From positions 1 through 26,353 of the IMG/VR virus record IMGVR_UViG_3300012936_002456: a stretch of DNA of 26,353 nucleotides; one strand, given 5' to 3'. The notes beneath the pieces are model-generated. The model was not told where the DNA came from. It saw nothing but the letters and a program-made list of their open reading frames with translations, and ran no database searches. This DNA comes from a virus. This document shows positions 2,870 to 26,152 of this stretch, in pieces. The position numbers and the translations under genes are program-made. Every line of letters starts with the position of its first letter. The first letter of the stretch is position 1.

Positions 2870-2891
2870 AACAAGGTCAACACACAAGACG

Positions 2892-3107
2892 ATGACTCTT
2901 ACAACTAAGTTCAAGAAAGACATTCAAACTCTTCGGGGCGCTGTAAACGGTGACTTTTTCCTTGATGTGAAGAATCCGAAACTTCTCAAAAAGGTCCGTC
3001 GTTATTATGAGAACAACGGTGTCGTTTTTTCTGGCGATCCTCTTGATGATTATGATATTTTGATGGAGCAAGTTGCTACTGATCTTGAATCTGTTGAGGT
3101 AGCATGA
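2892..3107 (+). CDS. Hypothetical early protein
   Basis: A 71-residue protein. The frame is open upstream, but the promoter at 2841-2869 makes the ATG at 2892 the first usable start. It is charged, with a Lys-rich first half (KFKKDIQTL, KLLKKVRRYY) and an acidic C-terminus. There are no Cys clusters or membrane segments. It overlaps the next gene in ATGA, so the two form a small early operon. Early expression in a T4-like phage suggests a role in host takeover, which is inference only. Confidence 0.7.
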   Translation: MTLTTKFKKDIQTLRGAVNGDFFLDVKNPKLLKKVRRYYENNGVVFSGDPLDDYDILMEQVATDLESVEVA

Positions 3108-3334
3108 AAGTTCTTCTAGAACGTTTTCCCTATCGTTATGTTGAATCGGGAACCCTAGATAATGGGTTCCCTGACTACAGAATCCAAAAAGCAGACAGTT
3201 GGACTAAGCGTTATAAGGACATGTATCTTCTAGACAATCAGATGCAACTTCTGACTGCCATGGAAGATTTTGAATACACGAAATGGTTAGATCCTGATCG
3301 TGTTCCTTGTTATGTGAGAGACGTAGTATCCTAA
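3104..3334 (+). CDS. Hypothetical early protein
   Basis: A 76-residue soluble protein starting at the ATGA overlap with the previous gene. It is rich in Tyr, Asp and Arg, with a Trp-Thr-Lys-Arg-Tyr stretch and a Tyr-Val-Arg-Asp tail. No motif is recognised. Its TAA stop lies inside a CTAAATA late-promoter core that serves the next gene. It shares the promoter at 2841-2869. Confidence 0.65.
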   Translation: MKVLLERFPYRYVESGTLDNGFPDYRIQKADSWTKRYKDMYLLDNQMQLLTAMEDFEYTKWLDPDRVPCYVRDVVS

Positions 3335-3337
3335 ATA
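3331..3337 (+). promoter_or_regulatory. Candidate T4-type late promoter (CTAAATA)
   Basis: CTAAATA contains the stop codon of the preceding gene (3332-3334). It lies 25 bases before the ATG at 3363, a normal distance for a late promoter with a short leader. Confidence 0.55.
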
Positions 3338-3362
3338 CTGATGAAGAATTAAGTATTTAACT

Positions 3363-3602
3363 ATGGCAACATCAGCTAGACAAGCTGCCGCTAAAACTGC
3401 AGCAGCGGATGCATCGAAAAAGACAGTTCATATGTCCCAGTACGATAAGCAAGTAGAAATACGCCTTCAGGCGTTGGAGCAAACGGCACACAAGAAGTGT
3501 GATGGTGGTTCCACAGGTGGTGCTAGCGAAGAGAGAATCGCTGCTCTTGAAGCAAAACTGGATGATCTGATTCGTCGTTTAAATAATAAGTTCAACTTCT
3601 GA
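3363..3602 (+). CDS. Ala-rich protein with C-terminal coiled coil, probably late
   Basis: A 79-residue protein. The first third is Ala/Lys-rich and likely flexible. The middle holds a Gly/Ser linker (DGGSTGGASEE). The last 25 residues (RIAALEAKLDDLIRRLNNKF) form a clear heptad pattern suited to a coiled coil. The late promoter at 3331-3337 and the coiled coil suggest a small structural or assembly protein, which is inference. The stop is immediately followed by the hairpin array at 3603. Confidence 0.65.
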   Translation: MATSARQAAAKTAAADASKKTVHMSQYDKQVEIRLQALEQTAHKKCDGGSTGGASEERIAALEAKLDDLIRRLNNKFNF

Positions 3603-3849
3603 GTTTCCTGTTTTATCAAAAACAGGTGGTGGAGTCAATCTGACCCAAGACATGGAGAGTCTGTAAAAACCCTGGTCGGGATGGGTCAACGACCCCTCGG
3701 GTTTCCTGCTTCCTAAAAGTAGGTGGTGCGGATGGGAATACTCTCCCGCCTGGTTTCCATTTTCCAGAAAAAGAAATGGTGGTGCGTCGAAATTCCCCTT
3801 CCGTGTGGTTGGTTTCTTGGTTCCATCTGAATAAAAACTAAGTGGCGGG
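3603..3849 (+). ncRNA. Array of four tandem hairpins with conserved flanks
   Basis: No gene is visible between 3603 and 3918. Instead there are four units of the form GTTT, a roughly 7-bp stem, a loop, then TGGTG or a close variant. The stems are CCTGTTTT/AAAACAGG (3607-3626), CCTGCTT/AAGTAGG (3705-3723), CCATTT/AAATGG (3757-3779) and CTTGGTT/AACTAAG (3816-3842). Stem sequences differ between units but pairing is kept, which argues for a structured RNA. A further GGGTC/GACCC hairpin is at 3683-3695. The region could be a leader of gmd, a 3' UTR of the gene before it, or a separate RNA. The wcaG RNA motif, known from cyanophages upstream of nucleotide-sugar genes, is a possible match I cannot test. 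Confidence 0.55.
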
Positions 3850-3859
3850 CATGTGTCCG

Positions 3860-3890
3860 AAAAGGGTAGTTGCATAAACTGCCCTTTTTT
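3860..3890 (+). terminator. Strong terminator before gmd
   Basis: A 12-pair stem with one G-U (AAAAGGGTAGTT against AACTGCCCTTTT) and a five-base loop, followed by further T. It closes the hairpin-array transcript 28 bases before gmd. No clear promoter lies between it and gmd, so gmd may depend on readthrough (attenuation) or on a weak CTAAATT element at 3907. Confidence 0.75.
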
Positions 3891-3918
3891 GATAAACTGA
3901 AATGAACTAAATTGTAGC

Positions 3919-4929
3919 ATGAAAAAAGTTGCTCTTATTACTGGCATTACTGGGCAAGATGGTTCTTATCTTGCAGAGTTATTGCTTGAGAAAGGATATG
4001 AAGTTCATGGTGTTGTTAGACGTAGTTCTTTGATCAACACTCACAGGATTGATCATATTTACAAACAAATCAAACTGCATTATGGAGATCTGACAGACTC
4101 CACTAATGTAGTCAATGTTATTAAGAAAGTAGAACCAGATGAGATCTATAATCTTGCTGCTCAGAGTCATGTGAAGGTGTCTTTTGAACTTCCTGAGTAC
4201 ACTGGTAACGTTGATGGACTGGGAACTCTTCGCATTCTTGAAGCAGTCCGTCTCCTAGGACTGGAAGATAAGGTTCGTGTCTATCAAGCATCTACATCTG
4301 AGATGTTTGGTAAGGTTCAAGAGATTCCTCAAAAAGAAACTACTCCTTTCTATCCGCGATCTCCTTACGGTTGTGCAAAGGTTTATGCATATTGGTTGAC
4401 TAAGAACTACCGTGAGTCCTATGGACTTCATGCAGGTTCTGGTATTCTTTTTAACCATGAATCTCCTCGTCGGGGCGAGACTTTTGTTACTCGTAAAGTG
4501 ACTATTGCACTCAAGAATATTGTAGAAGGAAAGTGGGATACTCTTTACCTTGGTAATCTAAACTCTCTGCGTGATTGGGGTCATGCAAGAGACTTTGTTG
4601 AAGCGATGTGGATGATGCTTCAGCAGGAGAATGGTGATGATTATGTTGTATCTACAAATGAACAACACTCCGTTCGTGAGTTTGTAGAAAAGTGTGCTCC
4701 TTATTTCAATATGAATATTGAATGGCAAGGTGAAGGACTTGATGAAGTTGGTATAGATACTGTTTCTGGTAAGACTATTGTTAGAGTTAATGAGAAGTAT
4801 TTCCGTCCTGCAGAAGTAGACACTCTTCTGGGAGATGCTACAAAAGCAAGAGAAGTTTTAGGTTGGTATCCTAAGACATCATTTGATCAACTAGTAGAGG
4901 ATATGTGTAAAAATGAAAAAGGGATCTAG
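3919..4929 (+). CDS. gmd: GDP-mannose 4,6-dehydratase
   Basis: Converts GDP-D-mannose to GDP-4-keto-6-deoxy-D-mannose in the cytosol, the shared precursor of GDP-L-fucose and GDP-D-rhamnose. The 336-residue length is normal. The N-terminal Rossmann motif is G9-x-x-G12-x-x-G15, followed by the RR pair at 34-35 typical of an NADP-binding loop. The catalytic set T126, E128, Y150 and K154 has the same spacing as in E. coli Gmd, and [15 protein letters not shown] is a family signature. No good ribosome binding site precedes the ATG. It overlaps fcl by 17 bases, so the two enzymes are made together. The product feeds both fcl and the RMD-like gene at 14986. Confidence 0.95.
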
Positions 4930-18576: not shown

Positions 18577-18657
18577 TGCAACAAAACGAGACAAATGTCG
18601 TTGTCTCTTTCATCTGCGGGTAATCACTCCGCAAGTAAACAACCGAGGTTTAAACAA

Positions 18658-19029
18658 ATGATCAAATCTGTATTCGCAGCTGCTGCTGCTCTGTCAATGT
18701 CCGCAGGCGCTGCCCTTGCAGGTCCCTACGTGAACGTAGAAACCAATGCAGGTTGGACTGGTTCTGAGTACACTGGTGCTGGAACCGATCTGCACGTAGG
18801 TTACGAAGGCGATCTGGGCGAGAACGGTTCGTACTACATCCAGGGTGGTGCTACTGTTCTGACACCCGATGGCGGTGACGCTGATACCGTTCCTTCTGGT
18901 AAGGCAGGTCTGGGTCTGGCTCTGACCGATTCACTGGGTGCCTATGGTGAAGTCTCATTCGTCGGCAGTGGCGATAAGGACCTTGACCGTGGATACGGTG
19001 CTAAACTGGGTCTGAAGTACAACTTCTGA
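18658..19029 (+). CDS. Secreted, small outer-membrane-barrel-like (porin-like) protein
   Basis: A 123-residue protein with a clear signal peptide (FAAAAALSMSAGAALAGP, cleavage after ALA at about residue 21). The mature part alternates polar and hydrophobic residues in short Gly-rich strands and ends in LKYNF, the aromatic C-terminus typical of outer-membrane barrels. I recall similar porin-like proteins in cyanophages. The frame is open for 21 more codons upstream, but GAGG before ATG 18658 and the signal peptide place the start here. It may sit in the host outer membrane or in the virion; both are inference. It is expressed late from 18522 and ends in a strong terminator. Confidence 0.8.
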   Translation: MIKSVFAAAAALSMSAGAALAGPYVNVETNAGWTGSEYTGAGTDLHVGYEGDLGENGSYYIQGGATVLTPDGGDADTVPSGKAGLGLALTDSLGAYGEVSFVGSGDKDLDRGYGAKLGLKYNF

Positions 19030-25994: not shown

Positions 25995-26082
25995 CATCAA
26001 CGACACAGAAGTTCACATTTCTTCACCGTTGGACCACACCCCAAACCGAGACCTATAGGGTGTCAAAATTACGTCTCTCATA

Positions 26083-26103
26083 CCTCTGCTAAGGGTGCAG
26101 AGG
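26083..26103 (+). promoter_or_regulatory. Hairpin in the psbA leader
   Basis: CCTCTGC pairs perfectly with GCAGAGG around a seven-base loop, about 50 bases before the psbA ATG. It could belong to one of the psbA leader RNA motifs (PhotoRC) described from cyanobacteria and their phages, which I cannot test here. Confidence 0.4.
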
Positions 26104-26152
26104 AATAGTAACTCCACCATTTCCCTGATGGTCTTACTTTTTTTCGATAACA

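Follow-up and report, generated by a model that had tools for sequence, protein, structure and literature searches.

Is an array of RNA hairpins that lies directly in front of a phage sugar gene the leader of that gene, or does it belong to the transcript that precedes it? The question is raised by the window analysed here, a single IMG/VR virus contig of 26,353 bases with cyanophage genes, in which such an array precedes gmd (3919-4929; PF16363, E value 1.1e-148), the GDP-mannose 4,6-dehydratase gene with which a sugar cassette begins. The array, the genes that flank it and their transcription signals all lie on the plus strand. An earlier note on this DNA had described four tandem hairpins at this place, with stems selected for structure rather than sequence, and had offered a cis-regulatory leader, a small RNA or a 3' UTR array as possible roles and the wcaG RNA of cyanophages as a candidate family.

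Architecture of the array

The four hairpins were located at 3603-3631, 3701-3728, 3754-3784 and 3813-3847, and each consists of UUU, a stem of 6-8 bp, an A-rich loop and a final UGGUG or UGGCG. Scanned against the 26-kb window, a covariance model of this H-type unit (model R2) returns precisely these four (31.6-43.6 bits, E values of 2.6e-7 to 6e-11; next-best match, E 0.15), of which only the fourth (E 2.6e-7) is an independent match, as the model was trained on the other three. The Rfam wcaG model (RF01761) provides independent evidence, matching positions 3697-3793 over its entire length (1-98 of 98) at 86.5 bits against a gathering cut-off of 42 (E 3.2e-15), which bears out the proposed family. 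The cmscan alignment contains zero mismatched pairs and includes the hallmarks of wcaG, namely outer hairpins with UUU, A-rich loop and GUGG and a central GGG/CCC hairpin, and the contig and its relatives are cyanophage-like, as expected for an RNA of cyanophages and marine virus DNA. The picture of four tandem units needs correction in that the second and third hairpins are the two outer hairpins of one wcaG RNA, while the first and fourth do repeat this type of hairpin; the first also carries a weaker wcaG match that stays below the threshold (3599-3666, 27.5 bits). Moreover, the units are separated by linker hairpins, and the earlier description had overlooked both these and a fifth unit, which is of the B type, so that the module order in the window is H-B-H-H-H.

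Read from its 5' end, the array begins with the H-type module X1 (3603-3631; R2 match 3600-3631, 38.4 bits), whose stem CCUGUUUU/AAAACAGG is followed by UGGUG and which has no clear conserved stem S1, and with the linker hairpin Y1 (3632-3647), which is of the GUCA/UGAC type in relatives. The B-type module X2 (3648-3678; model R1, 40.3 bits, E 1.3e-11) comprises S1 AGAC/GUCU, the loop AUGGAGA and the tail ACCC, then UGGUCG, and is followed by the linker hairpin Y2 (GGGUC/GACCC, 3676-3698). The wcaG RNA itself is made up of X3, Y3 and X4. X3 (3699-3728) is an H-type module and R2 match with S1 GGG/CCU and S2 CCUGCUU/AAGUAGG, then UGGUG; Y3 (3728-3750), identified from the wcaG alignment, is the P2 hairpin of wcaG, GCGGAUGGG..CCCGCC; and X4 (3750-3784), which is supported by the wcaG alignment, an R2 match and covariation, is the T form of H with S1 CUGG/CCAG and S2 CCAUUU/AAAUGG, again followed by UGGUG. 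A putative linker, Y4 (3785-3809), precedes the last module, X5 (3810-3847; 31.6 bits, the match outside the training set), an H-type unit with S1 UGG/CCA and S2 CUUGGUU/AACUAAG that ends in UGGCG. Beyond it lies an intrinsic terminator (3860-3890) with a stem of 12 positions, the loop GCATA and a T run at its end, about 28 bases before gmd as had been noted. It is overlapped by a possible gmd promoter, TTGCAT-17-TAAACT (3870-3898), which is weak here (8 of 12 bases) but strong in most relatives. The 301 bases from 3600 to 3900 fold better than all of 100 shuffled versions (z -2.7).

The array thus shares with wcaG RNA the full-model match, the cyanophage origin and the sugar gene downstream, but the Rfam annotation lacks its two additional H-type modules, its B-type module and its linker hairpins. 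Rfam scans of the relatives likewise mark the central wcaG alone; the Rfam model covers only the middle of a larger modular element. We claim no novelty for pseudoknots within the wcaG core, since the Rfam seed may already carry them, as gap characters in its structure line suggest. The best match to any other Rfam family at 3550-3960 falls on the terminator; it is to STnc390 and, with 24.3 bits, stays below that family's cut-off of 50. ARAGORN finds no tmRNA. PhotoRC, whose model had also been suggested for a scan, is represented elsewhere in the window, at 26023-26116, by PhotoRC-II (RF01717, 76.8 bits); this too is a cyanophage RNA with a possible H-type pseudoknot (GAGAC/GUCUC, by eye) and a hairpin, but it is without UGG-ended units.

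Module grammar and covariation in relatives

Over 100 stretches of IMG/VR, a few chance matches among them, were retrieved with a DNA pattern for the wcaG core, and another 80 loci came from the search for close relatives of the gmd protein. The flanks of these relatives show a recurring grammar of an X module, UGG and a Y hairpin. Four types of X module can be told apart: H (GUUUC-stem-A-rich loop-stem-GUGG), which is the unit of the earlier note; T, the form that H takes at the 3' hairpin of wcaG; B (AGUC-xYGGRxx-GACU-UAAAA-..-UGGU), with more than 80 distinct sequences; and C, a plain H-type pseudoknot with, for example, S1 GUCCC/GGGAC and S2 GCAAG/CUUGC, recognised by eye and then by script. 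About 110 wcaG loci are mosaics of one to five recognised modules, the commonest strings among 110 arrays being HHH (26), BBHH (22) and HH (15), and the modules are 61-86% alike at most and of differing types. Each unit is, as judged from these alignments, an H-type pseudoknot-like fold with an unpaired UGG at its end, usually followed by a linker hairpin. The search patterns themselves contained UGG, so that the main evidence for its invariance is the independent consensus of Rfam.

Strong stem covariation across cyanophages is found in all three module types tested (H, T and B), in agreement with the earlier proposal of selection on RNA structure. Among 50 distinct T modules of 36 nt, S1 reads CUGG/CCAG in 38, CAGG/CCUG in 6, CUAG/CUAG in 4 and CCUG/CAGG and CCAG/CUGG in one each, and all 50 pair at all four positions. 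In an alignment of 26 T sequences pairing across S1 and S2 is complete (100%) and 51 cells are double-changed, as compared to 11.9 (sd 3.1) in shuffles and at most 7 in slid controls, and H modules are 97% paired with 55 double changes against 16.5 in shuffles; these counts come from related sequences that were chosen for being distinct, and do not represent independent events. In B modules, S1 is accompanied by a short second helix whose pairs 6-24 and 9-23 are 100% paired, with two pair types each, and a GG is bulged between them. Within the window itself, the stem of X3 differs from that of the related locus L123 by a compensatory change from C-G to U-A.

The region is not protein-coding in relatives: in 48 of 82 arrays neither strand contains an open frame, and the minus-strand ORF at 3579-3947 of the window is interrupted by a stop in the relatives L123-L125.

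Occurrence in cyanophage isolates

The 301-base array matches 172 phage records. Searches of 15 complete cyanophage genomes revealed B modules in 12, H modules in 14 and wcaG in 14, clustered in essentially one array per genome; outside the arrays there are one extra B match in S-SCSM1 and one weak H match in ACG-2014f, and in the genome of P-SSM2 neither modules nor wcaG were found. Recurrent genes upstream of the isolate arrays are the T4-GC 250 and 860 genes and a Phd-like antitoxin gene. On the downstream side, a tRNA comes next in S-PM2, S-RSM4, S-H9-1, S-WAM2, S-CAM1, S-CREM1, S-H35 and DSL-LC02; in Syn1 a 2OG-Fe(II) oxygenase gene takes this place, while S-SKS1 and DSL-LC03 have gmd there. 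By eye, the hairpin that follows the array in S-RSM4, S-PM2 and S-CAM1 is without a T run, and read-through into the tRNA is thus likely in these phages.

Several annotations at these loci deserve comment. The annotated gmd start of DSL-LC03 lies inside the wcaG array (L203:3020-3125) and is probably a wrong gene call, as are probably the small CDSs that overlap the array in Syn1 and S-RSM4. S-CREM1 contains a manA RNA (L214:3043-3257) flush between two tRNA genes, so that its annotation as a 5' leader, too, merits a second look; by eye it is without the UGG-unit pattern, and we rejected the idea that manA is built from array modules. Matches to abiF RNA occur in a tRNA-rich stretch (L023:13624-13660) and likewise in S-CREM1 (L214:3359-3395). 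A host origin of the element was also considered and dismissed: the tight wcaG pattern has four matches in the genome_contigs collection, with one convincing array, in a Rhodobacteraceae MAG contig (L218:6200-6520), and this array matches the cyanophage locus L107 and is probably misbinned virus DNA.

The modules appear to be exchanged between phages. The gmd gene of locus L124 shares 93.8% of its bases with that of the window and X1 to Y2 are nearly identical, whereas X3 to X5 are strongly different and X5 of L124 is chimera-like by eye, with stem halves that no longer match. Module exchange by recombination would be the simplest reading of these differences.

Position between stop codon, terminator and promoter

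In the window the array directly follows a small gene (phrog_35121, 79 aa, 3363-3602; ORF list and PHROGs), whose stop codon TGA (3600-3602) adjoins the array start, as had been observed before. It is preceded by another small gene (phrog_481, 76 aa, function unassigned, 3104-3334; PHROGs E 2.8e-45), and a probable sigma-70 promoter of this operon, TTGACT-17-TATAAT, is predicted at 2841-2869 from its match to 11 of 12 consensus bases. Together with the terminator this makes a transcript from about 2875 to 3890 plausible. Among the relatives, arrays lie on the same strand as the upstream feature in 100 of 108 cases in which one was detected, and 82 of 107 (77%) start between -10 and +25 nt from the stop codon of an ORF that is 60 codons long or longer, as compared to 6.9% of random positions. 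An intrinsic terminator, often with the loop GCATA, follows the last module in 93 of 111 loci, the search for one having found none in about 18. Downstream of the array or terminator, 62.5% of loci contain TATAAT and 51.9% a -35/-10 pair, the figures for control stretches being 15.9% and 7.5%; before the array TATAAT occurs in 2.1%, below the background of 5.6%, and the late-promoter motif TAAATA is not enriched there (4.2% against 3.7%). The sigma-70 promoter of the next gene, as predicted from these motifs, thus usually overlaps or follows the terminator. Gene families vary on both flanks of the array.

Some neighbouring features of the window are recorded here for completeness. A Phd-like antitoxin gene (phrog_375, E 3.1e-13) is located upstream of the array at 2495-2665. 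At 2814-2869 a terminator-like hairpin directly after tRNA-Met is followed by the strong promoter match, forming a second terminator-promoter junction that resembles the one at the array's end. The sugar cassette ends with a cyanophage outer-membrane-protein-like beta-barrel gene (PF24653, E 1.2e-50; 18595-19029).

How does this arrangement agree with the view that wcaG controls the downstream gene in cis, as a 5' leader or riboswitch, with attenuation at the following terminator? This role was proposed by Weinberg et al. (2010; PMC2864571) and is the Rfam view; in line with it, a terminator follows the array as in attenuators, and in metagenomic loci sugar-nucleotide and glycosyl enzymes predominate among the downstream families, with some high-light-inducible genes besides, which fits the wcaG name and the earlier functional guess. 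Yet the arrays begin at upstream stop codons, lack a promoter signal before them, are separated from the next gene by a terminator and usually by that gene's own promoter, and are followed by a tRNA in eight isolates. A leader is therefore the least supported of the roles offered in the earlier note and in our opinion quite unlikely, whereas its small RNA and 3' UTR options may still hold. An antitermination element that acts on RNA polymerase in the manner of put or EAR and favours read-through into the long sugar operon would account for a structured RNA just before a terminator and such operons, but the downstream operon usually has its own promoter and arrays also precede single tRNAs, which makes this reading very improbable indeed. 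Transcription may also run through the terminator into the sugar genes in a regulated manner.

Possible function of the array

We propose, with a probability of roughly 0.6, that the element is a wcaG-centred five-unit mosaic at the 3' end of the upstream operon and that gmd is served by a promoter of its own. The five-unit array would be transcribed as the 3' end of the small-gene operon, the operon transcript would end at the terminator and gmd transcription would start anew from its own promoter; alternatively, the array may be transcribed from a promoter inside the upstream gene. Its position makes a 3' UTR or a 3'-derived noncoding RNA the most likely identity of the array. The mainly open-access literature that we searched contains no test of wcaG RNA function, no mapping of its transcript ends and no description of an extended array, and in that on cyanophage transcripts we found nothing on wcaG.

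But why would a phage carry a chain of diverse pseudoknots at the end of an operon? The chain might block 3'-to-5' exonucleases and stabilise the upstream mRNA during infection, for which its place between stop codon and terminator, its stable predicted fold and stems that vary freely while the structure stays would be well suited. A general protector of this kind would, however, be expected at many operon ends rather than in essentially one array per genome, and it would not need an invariant unpaired UGG or a bulged GG; we regard it as rather doubtful. Tentatively, and with somewhat less than even confidence, we suggest instead that the array acts in trans as a multivalent platform on which each pseudoknot-UGG unit would bind a single molecule of some factor from host or phage, the whole serving as a decoy or scaffold. 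We prefer this to a switch or a 3' protector because of the single array, its varied neighbours, the exchangeable stems and the shared UGG. A CsrB-like decoy was noted as well, from GGA in loops.

Known systems offer partial parallels. Like ToxI (PMC8860590), the array, whose folds are predicted by covariation, consists of tandem H-type pseudoknots of similar size, a terminator being preceded by 2-5 of them, each of 25-36 nt, and by this analogy it could be a decoy RNA that, like a type III antitoxin, neutralises a host defence nuclease; a Phd-like antitoxin gene is nearby in the window and in isolates. The repeats of ToxI are near-identical, though, whereas the array modules are diverse and separated by hairpins, and no toxin gene was recognised beside the array; directly downstream lie gmd in the window and sugar genes, tRNAs or others elsewhere. 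A ToxI-like role appears distinctly improbable. The tRNA cluster of phage T4 encodes the stable RNAs species 1 and 2. These resemble the arrays as noncoding RNAs of a T4-like phage near or among tRNA genes.

Going further, wcaG could be the visible core of a so far unrecognised class of noncoding RNAs in cyanophages that serve as trans decoys against host defence or capture a partner through UGG, a reading that we consider speculative and unlikely. Such RNAs would be chains of pseudoknots at operon 3' ends with swappable modules and a decoy action like that of type III antitoxins, and the partner of UGG would be an RNA or protein, for example the CCA ends of tRNAs; many arrays lie among tRNA genes.

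Since 2010 wcaG has stood in the catalogues as a possible riboswitch that would control phage sugar or light genes. The sequence signals described here place it, by contrast, before a terminator and promoter; searches for ligands that are aimed at the downstream genes may therefore be misdirected. Since the larger modular element is present in many cyanophage isolates, including the cultured S-PM2, Syn1 and S-RSM4, expression and deletion tests of its role are feasible now.
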